Positions 156 through 15,053 of a stretch of 40,568 nucleotides of DNA are shown in pieces. Every line of letters starts with the position of its first letter. Position 1 is the first letter of the stretch. A program made the position numbers and the translations under genes. Where the stretch lies: positions 1 through 40,568 of the IMG/VR virus record IMGVR_UViG_3300020185_000108. The stretch is one strand, 5' to 3'. The notes under the pieces were generated by a model that was not told where the DNA came from, ran no database searches, and saw only the letters and a list, made by a program, of their open reading frames with translations. This DNA is from a virus.

Positions 156-3100
156 ATGGCATATTCAGCATATATTTCTACCGCAGGTCCTCAGGGAGAT
201 CAAGGATCCGGATATCAAGGTACGCAAGGAGATCAAGGTTTCCAAGGAGATCAAGGTATTGATGGGGTTCAAGGTTTTCAAGGAGATCAAGGTTTTCAAG
301 GAGATACAGGAGAACAAGGTATTCAAGGTATTCAAGGAGATCAAGGTCTTAAAGGAGATACTGGAGAACAAGGTATTCAAGGAGATCAAGGTCTTCAAGG
401 AGAACAGGGTATTCAAGGAGAACAAGGTATTCAAGGTTTCCAAGGAGATCAAGGAACACAAGGAGTAGATGGTCTTAAAGGAGATCAAGGAGAACAAGGT
501 CTTAAAGGAGATCAAGGAGAACAGGGTATTCAAGGTATTCAAGGAGAACAAGGTCTTAAAGGAGACCAAGGAGAACAGGGTATTCAAGGAGAAACTGGTC
601 TTAAAGGAGATCAAGGTTTCAAAGGAGATACTGGAGAACAGGGTATTCAAGGAGATCAAGGTTTTAAAGGAGATACTGGAGAACAAGGTATTCAAGGTTT
701 CAAAGGAGAAACTGGAGAACAAGGTATTCAAGGTTTCCAAGGAGAACAAGGAGTTATCGGAGTTCAAGGTACTAAAGGAGACGATGGTATTCAAGGTATT
801 CAAGGTTTCCAAGGAGACACTGGAGAACAAGGTATTCAAGGTATTAAAGGAGATCAAGGTTTCAAAGGAGACGATGGTATTCAAGGTATTCAAGGAGATC
901 AAGGTTTTAAAGGAGATACTGGAGAACAAGGTATTCAAGGAGAACAGGGTATTCAAGGAGAACAAGGAGTTATCGGAGTTCAGGGTACTACAGGAGATCA
1001 AGGTTTTAAAGGAGATACTGGAGAACAAGGTATTCAAGGAGAAACTGGTCTTAAAGGAGATACTGGAGAACAAGGTATTCAAGGAGAACAAGGAGTTATC
1101 GGAGTTCAAGGTACTAAAGGAGACGATGGTATTCAAGGAGTTCAAGGAGAACAAGGTCTTAAAGGAGATACTGGAGAGCAAGGTGTTCAAGGAGAACAAG
1201 GAGTTATCGGAGTTCAAGGTGCTAAAGGAGACGATGGTATTCAAGGAGATACTGGTCTTAAAGGAGATACTGGAGAGCAAGGTATTCAAGGAGTTCAAGG
1301 AGAACAAGGTCTTAAAGGAGATACTGGAGAGCAAGGTATTCAAGGTATTAAAGGAGATCAAGGTTTCAAAGGAGATACTGGAGAACAAGGTATTCAAGGA
1401 GACCAAGGATTCAAAGGAGATACTGGAGAGCAAGGTGTTCAAGGAGAACAAGGAGTTATCGGAGTTCAAGGTACTACAGGAGATCAAGGTTTCAAAGGAG
1501 ATACTGGAGAACAAGGTATTCAAGGTATTAAAGGAGATCAAGGTTTCAAAGGAGATACTGGAGAGCAAGGTGTTCAAGGAGAGCAAGGTATTCAAGGAGT
1601 TCAAGGTACTAAAGGAGACGATGGTATTCAAGGAGTTCAAGGAGAACAAGGTCTTAAAGGAGATCAAGGTTTCAAAGGAGATACTGGAGAGCAAGGTATT
1701 CAAGGTATTAAAGGAGATCAAGGTCTTAAAGGAGATACTGGAGAACAAGGTATTCAAGGTATTAAAGGAGATCAAGGTTTCAAAGGAGACGATGGTATTC
1801 AAGGTCTAAAAGGAGACGATGGTATTCAAGGTATTAAAGGAGACCAAGGTTTCAAAGGAGATACTGGAGAACAAGGTATTCAAGGTATTAAAGGAGATCA
1901 AGGTTTCAAAGGAGATACTGGAGAACAAGGTATTAAAGGAGATCAAGGTTTCCAAGGAGAGTCTGGTACTTTAGGAGCTAAAGGAGATCAAGGTTTCCAA
2001 GGTTTCCAAGGATTCCAAGGCGATCAAGGTTTCCAAGGTATTGATGGTCTTAAAGGAGATCAAGGTTTCAAAGGAGATCAAGGAGAAACTGGAGCTAAAG
2101 GAGATCAAGGTTTCCAAGGTTTCCAAGGAGATCAAGGAGAAAAAGGAACTAAAGGAGATCAAGGAGAAAAAGGAGATCAAGGTTTCCAAGGTACTATAGG
2201 TAATGCTGGTGGTTTATCAGTAATATACGATGGTGTTACTTTCTCTGATAGTAAATATACAAATGTAAATCAATTATCACATACGGAAGCTAATGCATTC
2301 ATTTACAGCGGTTCTCAAGAATGGTGGTTCTCAGATATCGCAAACGGATTAGAAGATATTAACCACATGAATTCTTTATTCGCTAACATGGTTAACGATG
2401 GTTATGATAAGATTTACGTAAAAATATCTAAGAATGGTGATTCAACTAAATATCACTTATACGAAGCTTCTAATGCATCTATTATATTAGGTTCTGGTGG
2501 AAGAGGAGATCTTAGATTAGATATGGAAAGAGTTGGTGGTTCAAACAACGGATATGCCGGTGGTACTTCGTCTAACGAACACATGACAGCAGCTGCTGTT
2601 AACCAGCCTGATAAGAATGGACAATTATTAGTTTCATTTACACCAATGAAAATTGGAGCACAAGGAGATCAAGGTTTCCAAGGTTTCCAAGGAGCACAAG
2701 GAGATCAAGGTTTCCAAGGAGCAAAAGGTGATCAAGGTTTCCAAGGTATCGATGGTCTTAAAGGAGATCAAGGAGAACAAGGTATTAAAGGAGATCAAGG
2801 AGAAACTGGAGCTAAAGGAGATCAAGGATTCCAAGGATTCAAAGGAGATACTGGAGCAAAAGGAGATCAAGGTTTCAAAGGAGATACTGGAGCTAAAGGA
2901 GATCAAGGTTTCCAAGGAGTTCAAGGTACTGATGGTACTTTAGGAGCTAAAGGAGATCAAGGTTTCAAAGGAGATACCGGAGAGCAAGGTATTCAAGGAG
3001 TTCAAGGTACTAAAGGAGACGATGGTATTCAAGGAGTTCAAGGTACTAAAGGAGACGATGGTATTCAAGGAGTTCAAGGAGAACAAGGTCTTAAAGGAGA

Positions 3101-3674
3101 TCAAGGTTTCAAAGGAGATACTGGAGAGCAAGGTATTCAAGGTATTAAAGGAGATCAAGGTTTCAAAGGAGATACTGGAGCACAAGGAGCAACTGGAGCT
3201 AAAGGAGATCAAGGATTCAAAGGAGACGATGGTATTCAAGGTATTAAAGGAGATCAAGGTTTCAAAGGAGATACTGGAGCAAAAGGAGATACTGGAGCAC
3301 AAGGAGCAACCGGAGCAAAAGGAGATCAAGGATTCAAAGGAGACGATGGTATTCAAGGTATTAAAGGAGATCAAGGTTTCAAAGGAGATACTGGAGCACA
3401 AGGAGCAACCGGAGCAAAAGGAGATCAAGGATTCCAAGGATTCAAAGGAGATACTGGAGCAAAAGGAGATCAAGGATTCAAAGGAGATACTGGAGCACAA
3501 GGAGCAACTGGAGCTAAAGGAGATCAAGGATTCCAAGGAGAAACTGGAGCATTTGATGGAGATTCAATAACAATCGCCAATGATAAAGCTATTTATTTCA
3601 ACGATGCTAATGGTAACCCAACAGCAAGAATTGAAAGAGACGGAAATGGAGACATTACATTCTCATTCGATTAA
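156..3674 (+). CDS. Collagen-like fibre protein 1 (proline-poor, with a globular insert)
   Basis: This 1172-residue protein is almost entirely Gly-X-Y triplets: roughly residues 11-682 and 832-1130. They flank a non-collagen insert at about 683-831 and precede a short acidic C-terminal cap that ends in GDITFSFD. Triplets are drawn from a tiny set (GDQ, GEQ, GIQ, GFQ, GFK, GLK, GIK, GDT, GDD, GVQ). Apart from one GPQ at the N terminus, I find no proline in the triplet tracts. Lys in Y followed by Asp in the next X (KGD) is everywhere, an arrangement known to stabilise triple helices through salt bridges. The insert has a WW pair and looks like a folded domain or trimer node. The protein is probably a trimeric virion fibre; the role is inferred from the repeats and from neighbouring fibre genes. 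ATG follows an A-rich leader without a Shine-Dalgarno site. Confidence 0.9.
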   Translation: MAYSAYISTAGPQGDQGSGYQGTQGDQGFQGDQGIDGVQGFQGDQGFQGDTGEQGIQGIQGDQGLKGDTGEQGIQGDQGLQGEQGIQGEQGIQGFQGDQGTQGVDGLKGDQGEQGLKGDQGEQGIQGIQGEQGLKGDQGEQGIQGETGLKGDQGFKGDTGEQGIQGDQGFKGDTGEQGIQGFKGETGEQGIQGFQGEQGVIGVQGTKGDDGIQGIQGFQGDTGEQGIQGIKGDQGFKGDDGIQGIQGDQGFKGDTGEQGIQGEQGIQGEQGVIGVQGTTGDQGFKGDTGEQGIQGETGLKGDTGEQGIQGEQGVIGVQGTKGDDGIQGVQGEQGLKGDTGEQGVQGEQGVIGVQGAKGDDGIQGDTGLKGDTGEQGIQGVQGEQGLKGDTGEQGIQGIKGDQGFKGDTGEQGIQGDQGFKGDTGEQGVQGEQGVIGVQGTTGDQGFKGDTGEQGIQGIKGDQGFKGDTGEQGVQGEQGIQGVQGTKGDDGIQGVQGEQGLKGDQGFKGDTGEQGIQGIKGDQGLKGDTGEQGIQGIKGDQGFKGDDGIQGLKGDDGIQGIKGDQGFKGDTGEQGIQGIKGDQGFKGDTGEQGIKGDQGFQGESGTLGAKGDQGFQGFQGFQGDQGFQGIDGLKGDQGFKGDQGETGAKGDQGFQGFQGDQGEKGTKGDQGEKGDQGFQGTIGNAGGLSVIYDGVTFSDSKYTNVNQLSHTEANAFIYSGSQEWWFSDIANGLEDINHMNSLFANMVNDGYDKIYVKISKNGDSTKYHLYEASNASIILGSGGRGDLRLDMERVGGSNNGYAGGTSSNEHMTAAAVNQPDKNGQLLVSFTPMKIGAQGDQGFQGFQGAQGDQGFQGAKGDQGFQGIDGLKGDQGEQGIKGDQGETGAKGDQGFQGFKGDTGAKGDQGFKGDTGAKGDQGFQGVQGTDGTLGAKGDQGFKGDTGEQGIQGVQGTKGDDGIQGVQGTKGDDGIQGVQGEQGLKGDQGFKGDTGEQGIQGIKGDQGFKGDTGAQGATGAKGDQGFKGDDGIQGIKGDQGFKGDTGAKGDTGAQGATGAKGDQGFKGDDGIQGIKGDQGFKGDTGAQGATGAKGDQGFQGFKGDTGAKGDQGFKGDTGAQGATGAKGDQGFQGETGAFDGDSITIANDKAIYFNDANGNPTARIERDGNGDITFSFD
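189..2190 (+). repeat. DNA-level tandem repeats coding for Gly-X-Y modules
   Basis: Cassettes of 9, 18, 45 and 54 bases recur with near-perfect nucleotide identity. An example is the module encoding GIKGDQGFKGDTGEQ, near 1345, 1527, 1840 and 1888. Synonymous codons travel with the module: GGT stands before Ile, Phe and Leu, GGA before Asp, Glu and Val, and the DD pair is written GACGAT. This suggests spread by duplication or recombination. A second tract of the same kind covers about 2650-3550. Confidence 0.85.
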
Positions 3675-3722: not shown

Positions 3723-6473
3723 ATGGCATTTAATAAAATAGCGATAAAACTAGTACAGTCTACTGGAGAATTCCAAGCTCAGATCGATGAAATTTCGAAC
3801 AGAGCAGGAATTGACCAAGATTCAGCTATCGTCTATACGCCGTCTTACCTAGAAGAGTTAAACACATTCCCTACGGGGAATGTGTTAACTATTAGGAGTA
3901 CTGATTCTGCAATTATCGCAGGTGGTATTTTTGATGGTGGCGGAAGCTTTAAGCCTGATTCAACAATCGGCGGTAATTTAGTACTAAGACCTAGTAATTT
4001 TATACCTGGTAATTTCCCTTCTTTAAAAGGAGCAAAAGGAAATACTGGTGATGAAGGGTTTCGTGGAGATAAAGGTTCTCGCGGAAATACTGGATTAGTA
4101 GGAGATACTGGTAGTGAAGGATCACGTGGTAGTAAAGGATTAGTAGGAGATATTGGTATTTCAGGTACTACTGGAGCTAAAGGTGAAAGAGGATTTCAAG
4201 GATCTAAAGGTATTGTTGGAAATCAAGGTGAAAGAGGATTCCAAGGAAACCAAGGAACTAAAGGTACTCAAGGTACTAAAGGTTTAACAGGCGCAGATGG
4301 TGCCAGAGGATTCCAAGGATCTGTCGGAAACAAAGGAGTTACTGGACCTATTGGAGTTCAGGGAAATCAAGGAGTTACCGGATATAAAGGTGATCAAGGT
4401 TCTGATGGAGTTATCGGAGATCAAGGTTTTAAAGGTTCAACTGGAGCAACAGGTTATAAAGGACTTGATGGAAACAGAGGAGCACAAGGAGACGTTGGAT
4501 ATAACGGACCTCAAGGAGCAAAAGGAAATAATGGTTCAAATGGAGCCAGAGGATTCCAAGGAGACAAAGGAATTAAAGGAACAACAGGTATTAACGGACC
4601 CGTAGGAGACAGAGGTTTTCAAGGAAATCAAGGAACTCAAGGAGACGCTGGTATTAATAAAGTAATAGGAGCACAAGGATCTACTGGAGCAACTGGTTAT
4701 CAAGGATCTACTGGAGATGCTGGTATCGTTGGTGAAAGAGGTTTTAAAGGAGCACAAGGAGCAAAAGGTTTCAAAGGAGCAACAGGAGCCCAAGGTAATA
4801 CTGGTTCAAGAGGATTCCAAGGAACTCAAGGTGTTGTTGGAAACGTTGGAACTAAAGGAGATCAAGGTTTTAAAGGATCACAAGGAGCAAAAGGTTATAC
4901 TGGACCTCTTGGAGCACAAGGAGCAAAAGGTTATACTGGACCCCAAGGAGCAACTGGAGATAAAGGTTCTACGGGATCAATTGGATTTCAAGGAAATACT
5001 GGATATGCTGGACCACAAGGAGTTCTTGGACCAGTCGGACCACAGGGTTCAAAAGGAGTTCAAGGAGACGTTGGTCAAAGAGGAAACCAAGGAGATAGCG
5101 GACCAAGAGGATTCCAAGGATATAAAGGTACTACTGGTGCAAAAGGATATACTGGAATAACAGGAGCGCAAGGAAATCAAGGAGCAACTGGAGAAAGAGG
5201 ATATCAAGGAGATACTGGATATATCGCACCAACTGCAACTAAAGGAGATAAAGGATTTATTGGAGTTCAAGGAAACACCGGAGCAACTGGTGATTTAGGA
5301 CCAACTGGATTTATTGGAGTTCAAGGAAACACTGGAGCACAGGGAACTGCTGCACCAAGAGGATTCCAAGGAGTTCAAGGAGTTAGAGGAGCACAAGGTC
5401 TTAAAGGATCTACTGCAGCAACCGGAGACAGAGGATTCCAAGGAATTAAAGGTAATCAAGGAGCAACTGGAGCCACTGGAAACAAAGGGGTTCAAGGAGT
5501 AGTTGGAGATACTGGAACTGTTAGAGGGCCTCAAGGAAATACTGGACCTCAAGGAAGTCAAGGAACAACTGGACCTCAAGGAGCAAAAGGAAGTCAAGGA
5601 GCAACTGGACCAAAAGGTAATCAAGGAGCAACTGGAGCAACTGGAGTTAAAGGACCTCAAGGATCAACTGGACCAAAAGGATTTATCGGACGCCAAGGGG
5701 CAATCGGAAATACTGGACCCGTCGGAGATCTCGGACCACAGGGTGTAAGAGGAGCACAAGGATTAAAAGGTGATACAGGGTTTAAAGGATCTACTGGACC
5801 AAGAGGACCACAAGGAGCTACTGGTGATAAAGGAACAACTGGACCACAGGGAACTGCGGCACCAAGAGGTACCCAAGGAGCCGATGGATATAAAGGATCT
5901 CAAGGAGCACAAGGTTATAGTGGTGCACCTGGTCATAGAGGATTCCAAGGATCAACAGGACCAAAGGGATACGTAGGAATAACTGGACCGCAGGGATCAA
6001 GAGGACCGCAAGGTTCAACTGGACTTAAAGGTTTTATTGGACTTGCAGGTACTGTAAGAGGAGCTCAAGGAACTCAAGGTGGTAGAGGAGCTCAAGGTTA
6101 TACAGGACCTCAAGGAGCTAAAGGAATAACCGGACCAGTTGGACCAAGAGGACCACAAGGAGCTCAGGGTGTTAGTGGAAATGCTGGACCAAGAGGAGTT
6201 CAAGGATATAAAGGAGCAACCGGAGCGCAAGGAGCTCAAGGAGCACAGGGAATTGCAGCATCAGGTGTTGGACCTCAAGGTTATCAAGGTGCAACTGGGC
6301 AACCAGCACCGGCAAGAGGACCTCAAGGATATACTGGAGCCTCAGGTGGTTCTGGTACTGGAGCTAAAGGCCCACAAGGAGCTCAAGGAACCAATACCGT
6401 TGGAGGTTACAGTGGTTTAATCTACACGACTAGCGGCCCACGTACTATCCAGAATGGTGTAAATATCGGATAA
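3723..6473 (+). CDS. Collagen-like fibre protein 2 with a globular N-terminal domain
   Basis: This 916-residue protein has an N-terminal non-collagen domain (about residues 1-100, ending near FIPGNFPSLKG), then Gly-X-Y triplets to about residue 890, and a short C-terminal tail (GLIYTTSGPRTIQNGVNIG). Unlike fibre protein 1 it has many GPQ, GPR and GPK triplets, with Pro in X. Y holds mostly Gln, Thr, Lys, Arg, Asn or Ser. Several breaks keep the three-residue beat but replace Gly, as in GYIAPTATKG (from residue 499), GTAAPRG (541 and 710) and GSTAATG (562). Two GTVRG breaks (598 and 776) shift the register. The N-terminal domain could anchor the fibre to the baseplate or to another fibre. It is probably a trimeric virion fibre, lying 48 bases after gene 1 behind an A-rich leader. 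Confidence 0.9.
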   Translation: MAFNKIAIKLVQSTGEFQAQIDEISNRAGIDQDSAIVYTPSYLEELNTFPTGNVLTIRSTDSAIIAGGIFDGGGSFKPDSTIGGNLVLRPSNFIPGNFPSLKGAKGNTGDEGFRGDKGSRGNTGLVGDTGSEGSRGSKGLVGDIGISGTTGAKGERGFQGSKGIVGNQGERGFQGNQGTKGTQGTKGLTGADGARGFQGSVGNKGVTGPIGVQGNQGVTGYKGDQGSDGVIGDQGFKGSTGATGYKGLDGNRGAQGDVGYNGPQGAKGNNGSNGARGFQGDKGIKGTTGINGPVGDRGFQGNQGTQGDAGINKVIGAQGSTGATGYQGSTGDAGIVGERGFKGAQGAKGFKGATGAQGNTGSRGFQGTQGVVGNVGTKGDQGFKGSQGAKGYTGPLGAQGAKGYTGPQGATGDKGSTGSIGFQGNTGYAGPQGVLGPVGPQGSKGVQGDVGQRGNQGDSGPRGFQGYKGTTGAKGYTGITGAQGNQGATGERGYQGDTGYIAPTATKGDKGFIGVQGNTGATGDLGPTGFIGVQGNTGAQGTAAPRGFQGVQGVRGAQGLKGSTAATGDRGFQGIKGNQGATGATGNKGVQGVVGDTGTVRGPQGNTGPQGSQGTTGPQGAKGSQGATGPKGNQGATGATGVKGPQGSTGPKGFIGRQGAIGNTGPVGDLGPQGVRGAQGLKGDTGFKGSTGPRGPQGATGDKGTTGPQGTAAPRGTQGADGYKGSQGAQGYSGAPGHRGFQGSTGPKGYVGITGPQGSRGPQGSTGLKGFIGLAGTVRGAQGTQGGRGAQGYTGPQGAKGITGPVGPRGPQGAQGVSGNAGPRGVQGYKGATGAQGAQGAQGIAASGVGPQGYQGATGQPAPARGPQGYTGASGGSGTGAKGPQGAQGTNTVGGYSGLIYTTSGPRTIQNGVNIG

Positions 6474-6510: not shown

Positions 6511-9042
6511 ATGGCAAAATTTATCTTAGGTACTACGTTGGACAGTAATATTGTACTACACACTGGTAACCTTAATAGCACGAATTTTCCTCAGTTTATT
6601 GGACCAAACGGTGAATTGGGATCTCAGGGATCTCAAGGATCCGTTGGATCTGACGGTGACGTCGGCCATCAAGGTACTACTGGTAATCAAGGTTTCGTTG
6701 GAACCAATGGTTATCAAGGTAGTCAAGGTGATCAAGGATCTGCCGGTAATAAAGGTAACCAAGGATCAACAGGTCTTCAAGGTTTTACCGGAGCGACTGG
6801 AATTAGAGGAGAAAAAGGAATAACAGGTATATTAGGTCCTAAAGGTTCTAATGGATATCAAGGACAAGTTGGTGATCAAGGTTCTACTGGACTTCAAGGA
6901 TTTCAAGGTTCTACTGGAGCACAGGGAATAAAAGGAACTAATGGAGAAAGAGGTTTCCAGGGAGCACAAGGTTCTGTTGGTATTAAAGGCTTCCAAGGAA
7001 CACAAGGAGATACTGGAGAAAGAGGATTTCAAGGAGCAAAAGGAGCAACATCAGTTAAAGGAATTAGAGGGCCTCAGGGTTCTACTGGTTTAAAAGGATT
7101 TACCGGAGTTGATGGAGCACAGGGATCTAAAGGATCTACTGGTTTTGAAGGATTACCTGGAACTAACGGAGTTAAAGGAGCTCAGGGCGCTAAAGGCTCG
7201 ACAGGAGCTAAAGGATTTAAAGGAGCAACTGCTTCAGATTCTTTACCTGGAGATCCTGGTGAAAGAGGATTTCAAGGTCTTAAAGGAGATAAAGGATTTA
7301 CTGGATCACAAGGAGCACAGGGATCTACTGGAGCTAAAGGTTTTCAAGGAGTAACAGGAGCTAAGGGTTCTACAGGATATAACGGTATTACAGGAATTAA
7401 CGGTCTTAAAGGAGATACTGGAGCTAAAGGAAATCAAGGTTCTCAAGGAAACGGTGGAGCAACTGGTTTCCAAGGATTAACTGGAGGAGCTGGTGGAAGA
7501 GGACCACAAGGGTCTACTGGACCAAAGGGATTCCAAGGAGCTACTGGAGTACAGGGTGCTAAAGGATCTACTGGTTTTCAAGGTTTTCAAGGATCTATTG
7601 GTTATACAGGAGTTGTTGGTTCAACAGGATTTGAAGGAATAAAAGGAAATCAAGGAGCAAAAGGATCAACTGGACCACAGGGAGCTATCGGAAGCCAAGG
7701 TCAAGGTGGTGAAAGAGGATTCCAAGGAGCAACTGGACTAAAAGGAGCAACTGGTACTAAAGGTTCTCAAGGAGCAAAAGGAGCACAAGGACCTCAAGGA
7801 TCTCAACAACCTAAAGGAGCACAAGGAGCACAAGGAGCAAAAGGAGCTACAGGTTATAAAGGATTAACAGGAACTCAAGGAGCTCAAGGAGCAAAAGGAG
7901 CTACAGGTTATAAAGGATTAACAGGAACAACAGCTGCAGTAGGTAACACAGGTTCTCAAGGACCAACTGGACCTCAAGGATTTACTAATGTAAAAGGAGC
8001 ACAAGGAGCACAAGGAGCTAAAGGTTCAACAGGACCTACTGGTTTTACTGGAGCACAAGGTGCAACTGGAGCTAAAGGATATACTGGACTTGTTGGAGCT
8101 AAAGGAGCAACTGGAGGAACTGGAGCCGTTGGAAATCAAGGACCAACCGGAGCAACAGGTTATACTGGAGTTACAGGTTCTCAAGGATCTACCGGAGCAA
8201 CAGGTTATACTGGATTTATCGGTAAAACAGGAGCTAACGGATCACAAGGAAATCAAGGAGCACAGGGTGCAAAAGGTTATACTGGTTTTAAAGGAGCAAC
8301 TGGATTAACAGGATCACAGGGAAATACTGGAGCTAAAGGAAATCAAGGTTCTCAAGGAGCAACAGGAGCACAGGGTGCAACTGGACCAAAAGGTTATAAA
8401 GGATTTATTGGTTTCAAAGGACTTACCGGAACTACTTCAGCAGTAGGAGACAGAGGACCTCAAGGAGCAACTGGAGACAGAGGGATATCAGGATTCCAAG
8501 GAGCTCAAGGAGCACAAGGTAATATAGGACCAAGAGGTAATCAAGGAGTTACTGGAGGAACTGGACTTGGAGGATATAAAGGACCAACCGGTCCACAAGG
8601 ATCACAAGGAAATAAGGGACCACAAGGAGCAACCGGTTCAGTCGGACCGACAGGTTCAAGAGGACCACAGGGTAATAATGGACCACAAGGAGCTGTAGGG
8701 GCTCAAGGTGTACAAGGTGTACAAGGAGCTACTGGTTACAACCAAGCAGTAGGAGCTCAAGGAGCAAGAGGATTCCAAGGAAACACTGGAGGAATTCTAA
8801 GAGGTTTCCAAGGATCTGCTGGTGATGCAGGACCAAGAGGACCTCAAGGATCTGGTGGTGGAACTGGATTTATTGGACCAAGAGGACCTCAAGGAAATAA
8901 TGGACCTACTGGATTTGGACCACAAGGTCTCGCAGGACCAAAAGGTTATGCCGGATCAGGACCCCTTGGTAATGGTTTCAACGGATCTTTCGTGGATGAT
9001 AACGGAACAGCCTTTATTGTATCAGACGGATTTATACAATAA
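6511..9042 (+). CDS. Collagen-like tail-fibre protein 3 (LHTGN N terminus)
   Basis: This 843-residue protein has a short N-terminal head containing VLHTGNL (residues 15-21), then Gly-X-Y triplets from about residue 33 to 812, and a C-terminal tail ending in NGTAFIVSDGFIQ. The LH(T/A)GN motif is typical of the N-terminal regions of phage tail-fibre proteins and is shared with the next gene, so both may attach to the same kind of site. Breaks mostly replace Gly without changing the three-residue beat: GATSVKG, GSQQPKG, GTTAAVG, GFTNVKG and GYNQAVG. Pro is mainly in X; Y-position Pro is rare (GLP, GDP). Lys and Thr in Y are frequent (GAK, GYK, GAT, GST), giving many possible modification sites. 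The fibre role is inferred; the collagen nature is plain from the sequence. Confidence 0.9.
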   Translation: MAKFILGTTLDSNIVLHTGNLNSTNFPQFIGPNGELGSQGSQGSVGSDGDVGHQGTTGNQGFVGTNGYQGSQGDQGSAGNKGNQGSTGLQGFTGATGIRGEKGITGILGPKGSNGYQGQVGDQGSTGLQGFQGSTGAQGIKGTNGERGFQGAQGSVGIKGFQGTQGDTGERGFQGAKGATSVKGIRGPQGSTGLKGFTGVDGAQGSKGSTGFEGLPGTNGVKGAQGAKGSTGAKGFKGATASDSLPGDPGERGFQGLKGDKGFTGSQGAQGSTGAKGFQGVTGAKGSTGYNGITGINGLKGDTGAKGNQGSQGNGGATGFQGLTGGAGGRGPQGSTGPKGFQGATGVQGAKGSTGFQGFQGSIGYTGVVGSTGFEGIKGNQGAKGSTGPQGAIGSQGQGGERGFQGATGLKGATGTKGSQGAKGAQGPQGSQQPKGAQGAQGAKGATGYKGLTGTQGAQGAKGATGYKGLTGTTAAVGNTGSQGPTGPQGFTNVKGAQGAQGAKGSTGPTGFTGAQGATGAKGYTGLVGAKGATGGTGAVGNQGPTGATGYTGVTGSQGSTGATGYTGFIGKTGANGSQGNQGAQGAKGYTGFKGATGLTGSQGNTGAKGNQGSQGATGAQGATGPKGYKGFIGFKGLTGTTSAVGDRGPQGATGDRGISGFQGAQGAQGNIGPRGNQGVTGGTGLGGYKGPTGPQGSQGNKGPQGATGSVGPTGSRGPQGNNGPQGAVGAQGVQGVQGATGYNQAVGAQGARGFQGNTGGILRGFQGSAGDAGPRGPQGSGGGTGFIGPRGPQGNNGPTGFGPQGLAGPKGYAGSGPLGNGFNGSFVDDNGTAFIVSDGFIQ

Positions 9043-9080: not shown

Positions 9081-11555
9081 ATGGCAAAATTAAATACAGG
9101 ATCACTTGTAGGGGGAGAAACTCCCCTACATGCTGGTAACTTTGATGCTAACAACTATCCTGAATTAAAGGGAGACCAGGGAAACCAAGGTTCTGTTGGA
9201 GCTAAAGGTTTTCAAGGAGATCAAGGTTTTCAAGGTATTGAAGGTTCTCAAGGTTCTCAAGGAGATAGAGGGTTTCAAGGAGATAAAGGAGTTCAAGGTT
9301 CTGCAGGGTTAGAGCCGGGTGGAGATACTGGTTTTAGAGGTTTTCAAGGAGACAGCCCAAAGGGACATCAAGGTTACGAAGGTAATATAGGTTTTCAAGG
9401 AGATAGAGGTTTTCAAGGAAATAAAGGTACTGCTGATCAAGGTTTTAGAGGATTCCAAGGAATAGTCGGAGATTCACCAGAAGGACCAGAAGGTTTTAGA
9501 GGAAATCAAGGAACAGTTGGAGATCCAGGTAAAGTAACTAACGGTCTTAAAGGATTAAAAGGAGATCAAGGATCAACTGGAACACAGGGTAATGTAATTA
9601 CAGCTTACGTTGGTGATATTGGACCTGATGGACCAAGAGGATTTCAGGGAGATCAATTAACAGGAGCAACAGGTTTCAGAGGTTTTCAAGGAGATCAAGG
9701 TACTACGGGTTTAAACCCAGTTGGACCTACTGGTTTCGTTGGACATGTAGGATTTCAAGGTTCTGCAGGTACAAATCAAAAAGGACATAAAGGTTCACAA
9801 GGAGCAACTGGATTAAAAGGAGCTCAGGGTTCAACTCAAACTGCACAAGTAGGACAAACTGGAGACAGAGGTTTCCAAGGAGACGTTGGAAATAGTCCAA
9901 AAGGTTTTCAAGGAGCTGAAGGTTATCCTGGTTTCAAAGGAGCACAGGGATCAAATCCAGTCGGATCTAAAGGAGCAACTGGAGAAAGAGGTTTCCAAGG
10001 AAATACCGGAAGTACACCGGCTGCACAAACAGGAGATACTGGACCAAGAGGTTTCCAAGGAATGGTTGGTAATTCACCAACCGGGCCAAAGGGTTATCAA
10101 GGAGCAACTGGTATTAGAGGAACTCAAGGAAGTACTAACAGAGGTTTCCAAGGAAATAAAGGATCAGACGGACCAACAGGATATACAGGAGTAAATCCAA
10201 CAGGATATACTGGAGTTAAGGGTAGCCAAGGAGCACAGGGTAATATCGGAGCAAGTCCAAAAGGATTTATTGGACCAAACGGACCAACAGGATATACAGG
10301 ACCAACAGGCCCTGCGTATAACGCTCTTCCAGGTGATACTGGAAATACGGGACCAAGAGGTTTCCAAGGAGCTAGACCAACTTCACCAACTGGACCTACA
10401 GGACCAAGAGGTTTCCAAGGATTAAAAGGAGCAATGCCAAAGGGGTATACTGGATTTATTGGAGATACTGGTTATAGAGGAGTTCAAGGATCTTCACCAA
10501 CAGGAGCAACAGGTTATAAAGGAGCAAACGGAGAAAGAGGATTTCAAGGAGCAAATCCAACTGGTTATAGAGGAGTTCAAGGAGCTCAAGGACCTCAGGG
10601 ATATAAAGGAGCTCAACCAAAAGGATTTATTGGACCAACAGGGCCAAGAGGATTCCAAGGAAATAAAGGAGCACAACCTGGAGGATCAAGAGGACCACAA
10701 GGAGCACAGGGTGCTCAAGGAGATAAAGGAGCGCAGCCAACCGGAAACACTGGACCAAAAGGACCACAAGGTGTTCAAGGTTCACGTCCAACATCATATA
10801 AAGGACTTACAGGTTATAAAGGGTTAAATGGTAACGGCGGCCCAGTTGGAGATTCTCCAACTGGATATAGAGGACCACAAGGAGCACAGGGATCACAGGG
10901 TTCTAAAGGAGCAATGCCTAAGGGATATCAGGGTATAACTGGAGCTAAAGGAGATCAAGGTTATAAAGGAGCACAACCTGGAGGAGCTAAAGGATTTATT
11001 GGACCTCAAGGAGCACAGGGTAACGAAGGATCAGAACCAAGAGGAGTTCAAGGATATACCGGACCACAGGGTCTGAAAGGAACTACGGGATCTACTATTA
11101 CAGGTTATACAGGTTTCAAAGGACTTACAGGTTACAAAGGACCTACAGGAACAGTTAGAGGTTTCCAAGGAGCTACTGGTAGTAGTACAGGAAATGGATA
11201 TAGAGGACCACAGGGAGCAAATCCACAAGGACCACAGGGTTATAAAGGACTTACTGGAAGCAATGGACCAAGAGGACCACACGGTCTTAAAGGTACTAAC
11301 GGATCTCAAGGAGCTAAAGGATTTACAGGAATTAAAGGAGCTGATGGAGCACAAGGTTATAAAGGACTTACAGGACCAACAGGACCATTAGGGCCAACAG
11401 GGCCAAAGGGACCAAGAGGATATCAAGGAACTAACGGAACTATTTCTTACATGTCTGAAACGATTTTCTTCGGTACGGGACACAATGTTACATTCTATAA
11501 TGGATTAGTAACAGCAACCGGAGGCGGTGGCGGAGGTCTTAAAGGTCAAATATAA
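9081..11555 (+). CDS. Collagen-like tail-fibre protein 4 with evenly spaced interruptions
   Basis: This 824-residue protein starts with a short head containing PLHAGNF (residues 15-21), matching fibre protein 3, and continues in Gly-X-Y triplets to about residue 780. It ends with a hydrophobic cap (MSETIFFGTGHNVTFYNGL) and a Gly-rich tail. The triplet pattern is broken at almost exactly 20-residue intervals. Break units start at Gly170, 190, 210 and so on to 690, with one at 567 instead of 570. Most are pentads with Pro fourth (GDSPT, GANPT, GAQPK, GAMPK). Some are octads (GSTPAAQT, GARPTSPT, GPAYNALP), and these are followed by one triplet fewer, so the period stays 20. Such spacing implies a regular structural node along the fibre. 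The gene is the last of the fibre cluster and ends just before a strong terminator. Confidence 0.9.
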   Translation: MAKLNTGSLVGGETPLHAGNFDANNYPELKGDQGNQGSVGAKGFQGDQGFQGIEGSQGSQGDRGFQGDKGVQGSAGLEPGGDTGFRGFQGDSPKGHQGYEGNIGFQGDRGFQGNKGTADQGFRGFQGIVGDSPEGPEGFRGNQGTVGDPGKVTNGLKGLKGDQGSTGTQGNVITAYVGDIGPDGPRGFQGDQLTGATGFRGFQGDQGTTGLNPVGPTGFVGHVGFQGSAGTNQKGHKGSQGATGLKGAQGSTQTAQVGQTGDRGFQGDVGNSPKGFQGAEGYPGFKGAQGSNPVGSKGATGERGFQGNTGSTPAAQTGDTGPRGFQGMVGNSPTGPKGYQGATGIRGTQGSTNRGFQGNKGSDGPTGYTGVNPTGYTGVKGSQGAQGNIGASPKGFIGPNGPTGYTGPTGPAYNALPGDTGNTGPRGFQGARPTSPTGPTGPRGFQGLKGAMPKGYTGFIGDTGYRGVQGSSPTGATGYKGANGERGFQGANPTGYRGVQGAQGPQGYKGAQPKGFIGPTGPRGFQGNKGAQPGGSRGPQGAQGAQGDKGAQPTGNTGPKGPQGVQGSRPTSYKGLTGYKGLNGNGGPVGDSPTGYRGPQGAQGSQGSKGAMPKGYQGITGAKGDQGYKGAQPGGAKGFIGPQGAQGNEGSEPRGVQGYTGPQGLKGTTGSTITGYTGFKGLTGYKGPTGTVRGFQGATGSSTGNGYRGPQGANPQGPQGYKGLTGSNGPRGPHGLKGTNGSQGAKGFTGIKGADGAQGYKGLTGPTGPLGPTGPKGPRGYQGTNGTISYMSETIFFGTGHNVTFYNGLVTATGGGGGGLKGQI
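9588..11162 (+). repeat. 60-base (20-residue) periodic interruptions within a collagen coding region
   Basis: The first base of each break unit falls at 9588, 9648, 9708, 9768, 9828, 9888, 9948, 10008 and onward in steps of 60 to 11148. The only displacement is one node at 10779 instead of 10788, which returns to phase at 10848. Node sequences differ, so this is a conserved spacing and not a simple tandem copy. An outlying node at 9468 (residue 130) and one at 9348 (residue 90) are on the same grid. Confidence 0.85.
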
Positions 11556-11672: not shown

Positions 11673-12605
11673 ATGCACGAAACTAATTTAAACAATGTAA
11701 AATTAAACATTGATTCTATTACTAAAGGCACCGATGGATATTGGTATGCAAGAGGATGGGTAGGTTCAATAAATAAAGATACTATAGTAACTGATGTTTT
11801 ATTAGATGGAAAATCCTTGAATATTTCATGGGAAAAAAGATCAGATGTTTCTTCTTTTTATAAAGGAGTAATTCCAGAAAAAACAGGATTTAATATAATG
11901 ATCCTACATGCTGATATTAATAAAAAATTATGGGTTAGCTTAAACGACGCAGAACCAGTTGAGCTTATTTCTTTAGCTAAATGGGCAGCTTCTGCATCCG
12001 GGTTTAACAGAATAGATAAAGATGTTATTGTTGTTGATAATTTTTACGCAGATCCAGATTTAATCAGGGAATATGCTATGAACAATTTAGAGTTTTTACC
12101 TTCTAAATACCACAAAGGACAGAGATCTCAGTCTAGATATATTATTGATGGAACTAAAGAAAAACTTGAAACCGTATTAGGTAAAAAAATAACAAACTGG
12201 AATAATGGTGGATATGCTAATGGCGTATTTCAATTCTGTACGGCAGATCAACCTATAGTATATCATGTAGATAGTCAAATGTACGCTGCAATGGTTTACT
12301 TAACGCCAGATGCTCCTCCACAGACAGGAACCGCAATGTATCGAAGTAAAGTTACAGGAATTTCATCATTCCCAGGTCAAGAATCTAGAATGGGAGACGA
12401 ATACGTAGACACATTTAGAGGTACTAATAAAGAAATGAATTTCTACGATGGAACTCAATTTGAAAAGATTGATGATATTGGAAATGTATATAATAGACTA
12501 GTAATATTTAACTCATCACAATTACACGCAGCGACTGAATACTTTGGAGATGCAATTGATAATGCAAGATTTTTCCACATGTTCTTCTTTGACATTGAAC
12601 AATAA
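11673..12605 (+). CDS. Putative 2OG-Fe(II) oxygenase, DUF6445-like
   Basis: A 310-residue protein. The C-terminal two-thirds (about 115-310) resembles DUF6445 and related 2-oxoglutarate/Fe(II) oxygenases. It opens with VVDNFYADPDLIREYA and has an HVD motif (His198, Asp200) before a strand with MVYLTPDAPPQTGTAMYRS. The distal His285 lies in FNSSQLHAATEYFG, and NARFFHMFFF follows. These fit the metal-binding H-x-D...H arrangement of hydroxylases. The first 100 residues look like a separate beta-rich domain (WYARGWV, DGKSLNISW, RSDV). Its position directly after four collagen-like genes and before a glycosyltransferase suggests Lys or Pro hydroxylation of the fibres; that substrate is inference. 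The ATG sits 117 bases after the fibre stop, behind the terminator. Confidence 0.82.
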   Translation: MHETNLNNVKLNIDSITKGTDGYWYARGWVGSINKDTIVTDVLLDGKSLNISWEKRSDVSSFYKGVIPEKTGFNIMILHADINKKLWVSLNDAEPVELISLAKWAASASGFNRIDKDVIVVDNFYADPDLIREYAMNNLEFLPSKYHKGQRSQSRYIIDGTKEKLETVLGKKITNWNNGGYANGVFQFCTADQPIVYHVDSQMYAAMVYLTPDAPPQTGTAMYRSKVTGISSFPGQESRMGDEYVDTFRGTNKEMNFYDGTQFEKIDDIGNVYNRLVIFNSSQLHAATEYFGDAIDNARFFHMFFFDIEQ

Positions 12606-12616
12606 AACCACATTAA

Positions 12617-14470
12617 ATGAAAATTAACGTAATCACAAGATGTACGAGAACATCTAATTTATTAAAAATACAACCAACTGTATTTGATACTTCTAAAACA
12701 AGAGGAGTAGAGGTACATTGGCATATTATGTTTGACACTGGCGCACTAAAGGATATTGACGCAAATCTGTTATCTATTTTAGACCAACCAAATACAACAA
12801 TACATTTTATTAAAGGACAATCTGGCGGGATGATGTACCCTGAAACATCCGATTTAATAAGAAGCTTAGAACATTCTTGGTTTTATTTATTAGATGACGA
12901 CAATATAATGCATCCGGAATTCTATCAAAGAGTCGAAGATTTTGCAATGTTACCTGTAAATTCTGAAAAGAAAATCATAATGGTTGGACAGGCAGTTGAT
13001 GGTAAAGATTTTACTGGATTAAAATACAGAGAAGCTACTCCAGAATCTACAGGTTTTAGAAAAACCGACATAGCACAAATACTATTTAGATCTGAACTTT
13101 TTGAAAAATACGGTTTCACTGCAGATTACGCAGCTGATGGATTCTTTATCGAGGAAGTGTATAAGAATCACCCAGATACATTTGTTTGGATCAATGAAAT
13201 TCTTTCATATTATAATGAACTAGAAAAAGTATCAACACCTAAATTACCTAGGATCTTATATATAGGACCTGGGGAACCAGTTATGAAAACTACTAAAATA
13301 CTCGACTATGAGGATGATAACTTAGAGGTTCAATATGTAAAGGACGATACTGACATTAGAAAAAATATATCTAGTTTTAAACCAGATGCAATAGTAACTC
13401 GAGGAAAGAGTTCTTCTGATTTTAAATATCTATCAAAACTACCTCTTCAATTTAGAAGAAAATGGATCAATATAGATAATGATGAAGATTTAAAAAATGT
13501 AGGAGATATTGCATATAATGTTTCTGAAAACGCAATGTTAGATCCGACGAACATGGATGATCATAGCATGATATCTTTTACAACTCCAATATATAACACA
13601 GGTGAAAAACTGATAAACACTTACAATTCAGTAGCTGCTCAGACTTATGAAAATTGGGAATGGGTATTAATGAACGATTCAACTGACGGTGGTAAAACAC
13701 TTAAGATTGCAGAGCAAATTGCAGCAAACGATCCTAGAGTTAAGCTATATGATTTTAGAGAAAAATCAGGTGGTGTTATTGGAGAGGTTAAGTGGAGAGC
13801 GAACGCAATGGCTAGAGGGTATATTATTGCAGAACTAGATCACGATGATTTACTTGCAGTAACATGTGCACAAGATTTACATAACGCTGCGCAAAAACAT
13901 CCAGAGTGTGGATTCTTCTATGGAGATACTGCTGAAGTAAATGAACAATGGCAAAATCAAAAGTATGGTCCTGGGTTTGCATTAGGATATGGTAACTATC
14001 GAGATGAAGAATATCAAGGTAGAATGTTAAGTCCTGCAAATCAACAAAATATTAATCCAAAAACAATTAGACATATTGTTGGAGTTCCTAATCACATTAG
14101 AGCATGGAGAAGATCTACATATTTCGAAATTGGAGGACATAATAGAAGTTTAACAGTTGTTGATGATTACGAATTAATTATTAGAACATTCTTAAATACT
14201 ATCATGTGTAAGATACCTAAGTTAAGCTATATTCAATTTTTATATAGTAATCAAGGTCATAGAAATACTCATGATTTATCTAGGGCTGATATCCAAAGAA
14301 GAACACGTACAATCGCAGCAAGATATAACGAACAAATTAAAGAAAGATTTGAAGAACTTGGACAACATGACTGGGCATATGAAGAAAATCCATATTGGCC
14401 TATCAACGCAAAATCCAGATTTGGAAAAGAAGAAGGAGCAGTAAATATAACATATACAGATAATGAATAA
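12617..14470 (+). CDS. Two-domain glycosyltransferase (GT-A type)
   Basis: A 617-residue protein with two glycosyltransferase-like regions. Residues 1-200 look like a GT-A-type domain with an acidic DDDN motif (93-96) in FYLLDDDNIMHPEFY. Residues about 315-540 are a clear family 2 glycosyltransferase: SFTTPIYNTGEKLINTYNSV, QTYENWEWVLMNDSTDG and the metal-binding LDHDD (Asp408, Asp410, Asp411). A Rossmann-like middle part (about 210-300, PRILYIGPGEP) lies between them. It would transfer sugar from a nucleotide sugar to an acceptor. It sits between two putative hydroxylases and next to the collagen genes, which recalls collagen hydroxylysine glycosylation. Decoration of lipopolysaccharide or another virion protein cannot be excluded. 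The stop overlaps the next ATG by 8 bases. Confidence 0.85.
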   Translation: MKINVITRCTRTSNLLKIQPTVFDTSKTRGVEVHWHIMFDTGALKDIDANLLSILDQPNTTIHFIKGQSGGMMYPETSDLIRSLEHSWFYLLDDDNIMHPEFYQRVEDFAMLPVNSEKKIIMVGQAVDGKDFTGLKYREATPESTGFRKTDIAQILFRSELFEKYGFTADYAADGFFIEEVYKNHPDTFVWINEILSYYNELEKVSTPKLPRILYIGPGEPVMKTTKILDYEDDNLEVQYVKDDTDIRKNISSFKPDAIVTRGKSSSDFKYLSKLPLQFRRKWINIDNDEDLKNVGDIAYNVSENAMLDPTNMDDHSMISFTTPIYNTGEKLINTYNSVAAQTYENWEWVLMNDSTDGGKTLKIAEQIAANDPRVKLYDFREKSGGVIGEVKWRANAMARGYIIAELDHDDLLAVTCAQDLHNAAQKHPECGFFYGDTAEVNEQWQNQKYGPGFALGYGNYRDEEYQGRMLSPANQQNINPKTIRHIVGVPNHIRAWRRSTYFEIGGHNRSLTVVDDYELIIRTFLNTIMCKIPKLSYIQFLYSNQGHRNTHDLSRADIQRRTRTIAARYNEQIKERFEELGQHDWAYEENPYWPINAKSRFGKEEGAVNITYTDNE

Positions 14471-15053
14471 CCTTTTTGAAATACAAGAAAACGAGGCAAA
14501 CCAGTACTATTGGTTTGATCAGGGGTTTACACCTCAAGAATTGAAGTGGATTGAAGATGGAGTTTCTAATATTCCATACCATAGAGCAGTTACCGCTGGC
14601 GGAAAGACTGAAGATAGAAAATCAAATATCAAATGGATTCCACAAACTGAGGAATGGGAATGGCTTTACCAGAAATTAATACAAATGGCAAGCGAAGCAA
14701 ATAACCAATTGTGGAATTTTGATTTACACTCTGCGCCTGAATTAATACAGTATACTGAATATGAAGCTACCGAGTTTGGTAAATACGATTGGCACCAAGA
14801 CGTCGGCGACCATGCCCTATCTATTAGAAAAGTATCTATAACTGTTCAATTATCAGATAGTACAGAATATGAAGGAGGAGACCTATGCTTTTGGCAAGGA
14901 GGAGAATCCTTAGATAAAAATAACTTAATTGCACCTAGAGGAAAAGGAAATGTTGTTTTATTTCCTAGCTACTTATTCCATTCTGTTAAACCAGTAACTA
15001 AAGGAACTAGAAAATCTTTCGTACTTTGGCTAGGCGGAGGACATTATAAATAA
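14463..15053 (+). CDS. Prolyl-4-hydroxylase-like 2OG-Fe(II) oxygenase
   Basis: A 196-residue protein of the size usual for small phage 2OG-Fe(II) oxygenases. It has the iron-binding HxD motif at His111 and Asp113 (DWHQDVGD), and the sequence SITVQLSDSTEYEGGDLCFW typical of the double-stranded beta-helix. The distal His173 is in PSYLFHSVKPV, and Arg183 (TKGTRKSFVLW) is placed to bind 2-oxoglutarate. All key residues are present, so it is probably active. The ATG lies inside the end of the glycosyltransferase gene (ATGAATAA overlap), so the two are likely co-translated. Members of this family hydroxylate Pro, Lys or other residues; with collagen fibres close by, those are candidate substrates. 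Y-position Pro is rare in the fibres, so Lys may be the better guess. Confidence 0.87.
   Translation: MNNLFEIQENEANQYYWFDQGFTPQELKWIEDGVSNIPYHRAVTAGGKTEDRKSNIKWIPQTEEWEWLYQKLIQMASEANNQLWNFDLHSAPELIQYTEYEATEFGKYDWHQDVGDHALSIRKVSITVQLSDSTEYEGGDLCFWQGGESLDKNNLIAPRGKGNVVLFPSYLFHSVKPVTKGTRKSFVLWLGGGHYK

Follow-up and report, generated by a model that had tools for sequence, protein, structure and literature searches.

Collagen repeats occur in structural proteins of phages, the closest described examples being the collagen-like tail fibres of S-CRM01, S-CAM7, CRP-114 and CRP-125 and the FibU protein of 80alpha, none of which is called a heterotrimer in the accessible part of the descriptions (PMC7048315). 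The present analysis concerns a collagen-like protein, here termed chain 3, encoded at positions 9081-11555 of the IMG/VR virus record IMGVR_UViG_3300020185_000108, the 40,568 nucleotides of which were analysed as a whole and are referred to as the window. Judged from its sequence and that of its neighbours, chain 3 is very probably one strand of a heterotrimeric (A-B-C) phage collagen, whose partners would be encoded by the two genes directly upstream. Heterotrimeric collagen is usually regarded as an animal feature. Prokaryotic collagen-like proteins, which resemble the window set as collagen chains outside animals, are homotrimers according to the accessible part of a review (PMC8968730), whereas the window set points to heterotrimers. 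No report of a heterotrimeric phage collagen was recognised in searches of an open-access library, which excludes most subscription papers; it is the bacterial-virus form that was not found described there, interrupted heterotrimeric collagens being already known in animals.

Compared with the window, the phage collagen-like records checked have irregular breaks in the Gly-X-Y pattern or none, and their adjacent collagen genes are unequal in length. As matched sets, S-CRM01, two S-CAM7 isolates, CRP-114, CRP-125, LR756501 and LR756502 were rejected on the same grounds, no matched neighbours having been seen. An earlier note on this DNA had described known bacterial and viral collagens as irregularly or sparsely interrupted, which is correct for the records checked (S-CRM01, the two S-CAM7 isolates, CRP-114, CRP-125 and two from uncultured phages) but does not extend to other uncultured viral contigs, where regular grids of 7 triplets (loci L112, L118/L315 and L182/L316) and of 11 triplets (L313 and L410) are found.

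Among animal collagens the nearest likeness is type IV, in which different chains form one long triple helix with many interruptions, passage of the register through these interruptions matters, and the way in which chain register survives them is stated to be open (PMC10404678). The window set differs in that one chain is strictly gridded, the partners are nearly whole and the genes are adjacent phage genes. Complement C1q is a heterotrimer, and C1q and mannan-binding lectin (MBL) have one break per stalk, compared with about 30 in-register breaks in the window set. The likeness to these stalks lies in a collagen break that gives a bend, produced by an extra residue in C1q and by a GQG break in MBL (PMC9898670, accessible part). 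Domains specific to the type IV or C1q families were not found in chains 1-3 of the window, for which Pfam at E 0.01 gives Collagen alone.

Triplet numbers, breaks and indels in three adjacent chains

Chain 3 follows two further collagen-like genes, and the three chains have the following extents.

3723..6473, + strand: chain 1 (g2), collagen-like, 916 amino acids, PF01391 E 5.6e-111
4029-6395, + strand: collagen domain of chain 1, residues 103-891, 262 axial triplets
6511..9042, + strand: chain 2 (g3), collagen-like, 843 amino acids, PF01391 E 2.4e-109
6601-8961, + strand: collagen domain of chain 2, residues 31-817, 263 axial triplets
9081..11555, + strand: chain 3 (g4), the protein of the earlier note, collagen-like, 824 amino acids, PF01391 E 1.9e-63
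9171-11444, + strand: collagen domain of chain 3, residues 31-788, 263 axial triplets in 758 residues
9468..11162, + strand: node grid of chain 3, one break per 20 residues, that is, 7 triplets minus 1 residue

Each of the window's four collagen genes matches PF01391 (E 1.2e-162 to 1.9e-63). By eye only, the short N- and C-terminal non-collagen segments of the chains resemble one another.

Positions along each chain are expressed as an axial index, a triplet count that begins at the first Gly-X-Y and in which each break is rounded to a whole number of triplets; inserts of at least 13 residues are dropped, and counting starts with the earliest run of 10 or more triplets and stops with the last run of 4 or more. 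By this one mechanical rule, chains 1, 2 and 3 of the window contain 262, 263 and 263 triplets despite having 789, 787 and 758 residues, respectively. The same agreement is found in adjacent collagen genes at other loci, both in trios (L006 and L007, 276/277/277; L011, 185/184/185; L013, 190/191/190; L314, 241/243/241; L317, 161/161/162) and in pairs (L313, 283/282; L315, 314/314). With L410 (described below) included, set lengths span 161 to 318 triplets and match within 2 triplets per virus, except in L009. These values were unaffected by the start rule when alternative rules were tried (L007 not included). In the pooled tests each lineage was represented by a single set (window, L009, L011, L013, L314, L317, L313 and L315); L001-L008 (window lineage), L012, L014, L043, L045 and L046 were left out because they are near-copies or lie on the same contigs. 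L410 and L399 were found later and are reported apart, and L413 and L414, relatives of L313, are uncounted. When lengths were regrouped at random among the 8 independent sets, none of 20000 shuffles was as tight. Altogether 25 adjacent collagen pairs were examined, of which 18 lie within sets (16 differing by no more than 2 triplets, and the two of L009 by 7 and 5). The other 7 comprise five complete pairs outside sets, which differ by 24 to 149 triplets (L154, L159, L307, L309 and the g1-type gene of L314 versus its chain 1), and two put aside as cut genes (L006 g1 and L069).

The break grid of chain 3 was examined by a dynamic-programming split into Gly-X-Y runs and breaks, in which breaks start at residues 133, 153, 173 ... 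553, 570, 593 ... 693. These 29 break positions give 28 gaps, 26 of exactly 20 residues and the remaining two of 17 and 23, after which phase is regained. The strict 20-residue spacing reported in the earlier note is thus borne out, as is its single shifted unit (567 for 570) with phase restored at the next. Its grid was said to begin at Gly170, which is too late, since the actual start is Gly130 (base 9468, the start given in that note itself); at residue 690, where the grid was said to end, there is a node, although of another kind (one extra residue, GTVRG). Likewise, pentads followed by five triplets and octads by four describe the grid generally, but not around 550/567.

In triplets, 30 of the 34 breaks in the chain 3 collagen domain fall on one phase modulo 7 (binomial p ~1e-21 at 1/7). 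On the axial index the breaks follow 35 + 7k up to 238; those at 188 and 234 lie off the lattice, and two more precede it at 16 and 30. With the exception of two close to the C-terminal end, each break lacks one residue to make up whole triplets. A pattern defined by Gly codons only, and therefore blind to node sequence, gave 36 matches in the window compared with 0 in 100 shuffles. Six octads are present (Gly170, 250, 310, 410, 430 and 567), including the following.

9588..9611, + strand: octad GNVITAYV, node at index 49, facing the chain-2 break SVK at index 50
10308..10331, + strand: octad GPAYNALP, node at index 133, facing chain-1 APTATK (133) and chain-2 QPK (134)
10779..10802, + strand: octad GSRPTSYK, the sole off-phase node, at index 188 for 189

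The off-phase octad node is also one triplet out of phase in L006/L007 (index 202).

Homologues of chain 3 retain the spacing, with 28 gaps of 20 residues in L001-L004, 26 in L009, 16 in L013/L014 and 11 in L011/L012, and in the more distant of them the node letters are quite different. This is the outcome that the earlier note had proposed as a check, and its statement that length rather than sequence is conserved holds in so far as spacing survives in divergent homologues. The conserved quantity, however, is 7 triplets and not 20 residues. In L011 two breaks are absent and the gap there is 41 rather than 40 residues (14 triplets minus 1), whole triplets replacing the lost break, and in L043/L317 breaks recur at intervals of 41 residues in one collagen gene and of 43 in another, each interval corresponding to 13 triplets plus the break; it follows that the number of triplets is what is kept.

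The breaks of chains 1 and 2, which are sparse in comparison with those of chain 3, are located as follows.

4659..4667, + strand: chain-1 break KVI, index 70 (node)
5226..5243, + strand: chain-1 break APTATK, index 133 (node)
5352..5360, + strand: chain-1 break APR, index 147 (node)
5415..5423, + strand: chain-1 break AAT, index 154 (node)
5859..5867, + strand: chain-1 break APR, index 203 (node)
7051..7059, + strand: chain-2 break SVK, index 50
7231..7248, + strand: chain-2 break ASDSLP, index 70-71
7807..7815, + strand: chain-2 break QPK, index 134
7933..7941, + strand: chain-2 break AAV, index 148
7987..7995, + strand: chain-2 break NVK, index 154
8437..8445, + strand: chain-2 break SAV, index 204
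8743..8751, + strand: chain-2 break QAV, index 238, where chain 3 breaks too

Indices 70, 133, 147, 154 and 203 of chain 1 are thus set against 50, 70, 134, 148, 154, 204 and 238 of chain 2. Two breaks of chain 1 with one extra residue (indices 166 and 225) have no counterpart, and the breaks of both chains close to the C-terminus lie off the grid. Over the eight sets, 77 of 149 breaks coincide within one triplet, compared with 39.0 +- 6.3 under circular shifts (reached in 0 of 20000), and 34 coincide exactly, compared with 13.0 expected (1 of 20000 circular shifts). When only the two chains with sparse breaks are compared, six trios give 15 coincidences among 42 breaks, where 4.0 are expected (0 of 20000).

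Furthermore, the relatives L006 and L007 carry an insertion in all three genes, of 42, 42 and 40 residues, respectively. Aligned with the window, L006 has one large insertion per chain, after residues 344 of chain 1, 273 of chain 2 and 260 of chain 3.

4754..4755, + strand: chain-1 insertion point, 42 additional amino acids in L006/L007, axial index ~80 as aligned
7329..7330, + strand: chain-2 insertion point, 42 additional amino acids in L006, axial index ~81 as aligned
9860..9861, + strand: chain-3 insertion point, 40 additional amino acids (two nodes) in L006/L007, axial index ~80 as aligned

In L007 the aligner sets the chain-2 insert after residue 320, and break positions alone place the insert between indices 70 and 133 in all three chains. 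Since 40 residues with two breaks are equivalent to 42 without breaks, the insertion preserves register.

In addition to these coincident features, the X/Y composition of the partner chains has a period of 7 triplets (21 residues), with z values of 4.1 and 3.7 for chains 1 and 2 of the window, 5.6 and 5.7 for those of L314, and 5.2 at 7 and 6.7 at 14 for chain 2 of L317, which is unbroken over 108 triplets. Either 7 or 14 is the top period (range 3-15 triplets) in 8 of 12 partner chains, compared with 6 of 45 other long collagen open reading frames (4 at 7 and 2 at 14); two of these six, L167 and L115, contain 20-residue gaps of their own. This hidden period is in phase with the breaks of chain 3, and its main signal lies at the Y position of the triplet preceding a node: T, N or S is found there in five lineages in 74/159 cases for chain 1 (201/949 elsewhere) and in 69/157 for chain 2 (219/949 elsewhere). 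The pooled count is 143, whereas randomly chosen phases give 80.3 +- 12.5 (0 of 5000 as high), the residue class and phase having been picked after inspection of the data. In chain 2 of the window alone this position holds T, N or S in 27 of 36 cases, and 7 of 10 partner chains peak at the pre-node phase.

Proposed co-assembly of the chains and competing explanations

Equal triplet lengths, coinciding breaks, a concerted indel and a hidden period of the partner chains are properties of the sequences themselves, from which co-assembly of the three chains, within a fibre presumably carried by the virion, is inferred. In the arrangement envisaged, three chains of equal triplet number would zip into a single A-B-C triple helix, in which nodes 7 triplets apart would hold the chains in common register. 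At each node the break of chain C would be one residue short (5 in place of 6, or 8 in place of 9); chains A and B would usually remain Gly-X-Y at that level, enriched in the small polar residues T, N and S, and the Gly of each chain would regain the same phase past every node. Because register is kept in triplets, each chain C break would span one residue rise beyond its residue number, and is predicted to be locally stretched, to ~17 Å over 5 residues. The node would thereby be a local weak point with a recognisable level of side chains, acting as a key during folding and zippering and as a joint in the finished fibre; the role of register key is moderately favoured, and that of joint has about an even chance. 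Taking a rise of 0.86 nm per triplet, the 263 triplets would give a fibre ~225 nm long, which two probable Fe(II)/2-oxoglutarate (Fe/2OG) oxygenases and a glycosyltransferase encoded downstream may modify. A collagen helix of the 7/2 type has 7 triplets per turn and one of the 10/3 type has 10, so that all nodes could lie on one face with 7 triplets making one turn; this is kept only as a possibility, because L313 and L410 use 11 triplets and L315 partly 8.

It is likely, more generally, that bacterial viruses possess heterotrimeric collagens of their own, encoded by pairs or trios of adjoining genes together with a module of hydroxylase and glycosyltransferase. Every interruption in them would count as whole triplets, one chain being free to lose a residue at each node as long as its partners remain whole, and the lattice (7 here, 11 in another family) would belong to the trimer rather than to a single chain. 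If so, several natural phage chain sets, varying independently, would make it possible to derive the register rule from sequence and to test it on short recombinant chains, and would open a way to designing heterotrimeric collagens whose register is built in.

Several observations weigh against co-assembly or its generality. In L009 the lengths are 267/260/255, a spread of up to 12 triplets, and beyond index 200 chain 1 leads chain 2 by 3 to 5 triplets. Chains 1 and 2 of L011 have no common break (0/4), chains 2 and 3 coincide in just 1 of 6 in both L013 and L317, and, with a sparse chain set against a dense 7-grid, most single tests are non-significant alone. The idea that octads mark triple breaks, for which L314 and indices 49 and 133 of the window are suggestive, was rejected, the enrichment of octads facing partner breaks (7/18 versus 20/113) being non-significant (p 0.057). 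A period of 7 or 14 is not the top one in 4 of 12 partner chains (chain 1 of L009, chain 1 of L011 and chains 1 and 2 of L013), and no T/N/S peak at the pre-node phase was found in L317, chain 1 of L009, chain 2 of L011 or chain 2 of L314. Neither is the step of 7 universal, being 11 triplets in L313 and L410 and partly 8 in L315. At a fixed offset, the breaks of L313 agree within 1 triplet in 11/20 cases, which 5% of shifts equal, and exactly in 0/20. The strict start rule reads L414 as 283/264 and L399 as 216/216/209, compared with 283/282 and 216/216/215 under a looser rule. Finally, a chain of L339 with breaks one residue short has 322 triplets, and its nearly unbroken neighbour, cut by the contig end, at least 537; such breaks alone, then, do not prove a matched set.

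The alternative that survives best, itself improbable, is that three homotrimeric fibres, A3, B3 and C3, of equal length lie side by side with their breaks in step, and lateral packing would indeed also be served by equal lengths and matched breaks. In a C3 homotrimer, however, the fibre would be up to 31 residue rises shorter for want of those residues, and its nodes would drift out of step. The step observed is kept in triplets and not in residues (84 versus 35 of 150 coincidences with L410 included and L313 left out; 18 versus 2 of 21 in L410 itself), as one shared triple helix requires. The earlier note had offered a register for side-by-side packing of fibres; a register is retained in the heterotrimer, most likely between three chains of one fibre.

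Shared ancestry alone, in which paralogues would have inherited similar lengths and breaks without assembling jointly, is more doubtful still, although the chains are ~50% identical over their aligned parts and the genes adjoin. Inheritance alone keeps no later indels in step, so that descent from a common paralogue does not predict the concerted, register-preserving 42/42/40 insertion of L006/L007. Nor does it sit well with lengths that range widely between viruses yet match within each, L009 less well, or with the inequality of the five complete adjacent pairs outside the sets.

That the grid is a by-product of 60-base tandem expansion with unconstrained spacing, one recent event of which the earlier note had named as capable of overturning its proposal, is least credible of all and was rejected on low unit-to-unit identity, the 27 in-phase 60-base units of chain 3 averaging 53% DNA identity (maximum 77%). 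A two-unit duplication does exist in relatives (120 bases, copies 90% identical in L006), as do low-complexity 20-residue arrays elsewhere (L118 and L182), and the same residue has an identical codon slightly more often in adjacent units (0.61) than in units at least 8 apart (0.55), from which some local duplication within the grid is possible. In contrast, the likeness of X/Y codons is only marginally higher within a slot (0.393) than between slots (0.378), node sequences diverge while spacing stays, and the hidden period of the partner chains is 7 triplets (63 bases) and not 60 bases. Within 9468-11162, TRF reports period 60 solely at 10940-11055 (1.9 copies). Of 212 glycines compared between the window and L007, 2 differ, and amino-acid changes occur in 108 of 701 compared codons.

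Other loci and other lattices

A scan for relatives of the neighbouring oxygenase, in which 80 of at least 573 confirmed ones were kept, yielded new collagen sets, and among the later loci (L318-L419) a collagen open reading frame was present in 65 of 102. In L410, a locus found independently of the pooled sets, two adjacent genes both have 318 triplets (326/325 under the looser start rule), one with 27 breaks one residue short and the other with 19 Gly-less breaks of whole triplets. Of the 21 second-chain breaks, 18 fall exactly opposite first-chain breaks, three 10-triplet slips in the 11-triplet grid included; gap-order shuffles reached 18 in 0 of 20000. In L313, matches number 11/11 before an insert (offset +1) and 8/9 after it (offset +2). 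L313, L403, L410 and L413 form a second family with a lattice of 11 (and 4) triplets, in which one chain has breaks one residue short (PI/VI) and its neighbour Gly-less triplets (APQ, NVQ, SPI, AIT).

Low-complexity 20-residue arrays with PQ, PK or PT breaks are seen in L118/L315, L182/L316, L112 and L167, and L167 has a long unbroken run in which the period of 7 triplets is strong (z 10.1). In L315 both TQ breaks of one chain, its only two, face ASK breaks of the neighbour at indices 28 and 92. The three adjacent, nearly unbroken collagen genes of L399 (375-7482), which under the looser rule have the 216/216/215 triplets given above and lack a break lattice, are a possible heterotrimer without nodes. 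The chain at L339 5269 has 16 breaks one residue short (IT), about every 12 triplets, and an adjacent collagen pair found later in L398 is unequal (78 versus 159 triplets). DNA-pattern scans for 20-, 23- and 17-residue grids returned at least 120 stretches each, many merely glycine-rich, from which no frequencies are derivable; example loci are L112, L118, L157, L167, L173, L182 and L273.

Chain 2 of L011 (4854) and of L013 (5580) carries a non-collagen insert of ~150-170 amino acids, in both viruses at one node position (axial index 84), and chain 1 of L013 (2881) one in this size range at index 169. Chain 3 of L011 lacks a break exactly where chain 2 has its insert (index 84). Pfam at E 0.01 gave no named domain in the insert-bearing chain-2 proteins of L011 and L013, and the inserts are possible receptor-binding side domains. 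By eye, Hint/intein-like domains (ending ...HN) appear to be present at the C-terminus of chain 3 in L009 (6902) and L011 (7215) and at the N-termini in L112 and L157; Pfam at E 0.01 did not report a Hint domain in L009.

The window contains one further collagen gene.

156-3674: fourth collagen gene g1, upstream, with regular GDQGFKGDTGEQGIQ-type repeats; TRF period 126 base pairs (bp), 9 copies

In g1, unbroken stretches of 223 and 100 triplets flank a non-collagen insert. As a member of the fibre it was rejected, the g1-type gene of L314 having 337 triplets versus 241 and the window g1 lacking period 7 (z7 -2.1).

Downstream enzymes and phage type

Three genes downstream of chain 3 encode putative modifying enzymes.

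11673..12605, + strand: DUF6445 protein with a predicted fold of the Fe/2OG oxygenases, resembling prolyl hydroxylases; H198-x-D200 ... H285 ... R299 identical in all 18 sequences
12617..14470, + strand: 617-amino-acid protein with a family 2 glycosyltransferase domain (residues 321-459); homologues in relatives
14463..15053, + strand: 2OG-Fe(II) oxygenase; H111-x-D113 ... H173 ... R183 invariant in 10 sequences

Both oxygenases are probable members of the Fe/2OG class. The fold was tested for the DUF6445 protein alone, for which the best model has pLDDT 86 and pTM 0.58 (five models, 54 to 86); among the Foldseek matches listed, most are 2OG oxygenases or prolyl hydroxylases (3dkq, Tpa1, PHD2, P. 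putida P4H), with modest TM-scores of 0.2-0.5. Sequence matches of the second oxygenase to PKHD-type hydroxylases are weak (E 2e-4). The DUF6445 protein matches phrog_1644, labelled 'minor coat protein', a label that may be wrong for this family given the predicted likeness to Fe/2OG oxygenases. Its named-phage relatives are cyanophages and marine viruses (18 records).

Homologues of the second oxygenase adjoin the collagen pairs of L315 and L316 and lie one gene away in L313, and homologues of the glycosyltransferase domain adjoin the oxygenase homologue in L315 and L316. The DUF6445 and glycosyltransferase genes also occur beside single-gene collagens (L018, L021, L025, L050 and L058), which means that this module is not specific to heterotrimers. 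The arrangement recalls the prolyl and lysyl hydroxylases and glycosyltransferases that modify animal collagen, in that probable Fe/2OG oxygenases and a glycosyltransferase stand beside collagen genes; it differs in that the link to collagen is one of gene neighbourhood, and other substrates are possible. Phage glycosyltransferases in a related region are taken to act on the host surface (PMC7029224, accessible part). The collagen chains are putative substrates, and whether the downstream enzymes act on them is evenly balanced.

The window also encodes PhoH, dCMP deaminase and a baseplate-hub-like protein. Contig G008, which carries L007, encodes a T4-type portal, and contig G003, which carries L315, a T4-type capsid protein; from G006 and G007 neither T4-type protein was obtained. 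Taken together, these genes suggest T4-like phages. Elsewhere in the window, a tandem 144-bp repeat with 91% matches (24614-24877) codes for a glutamate-rich segment within the open reading frame at 24277-25464.

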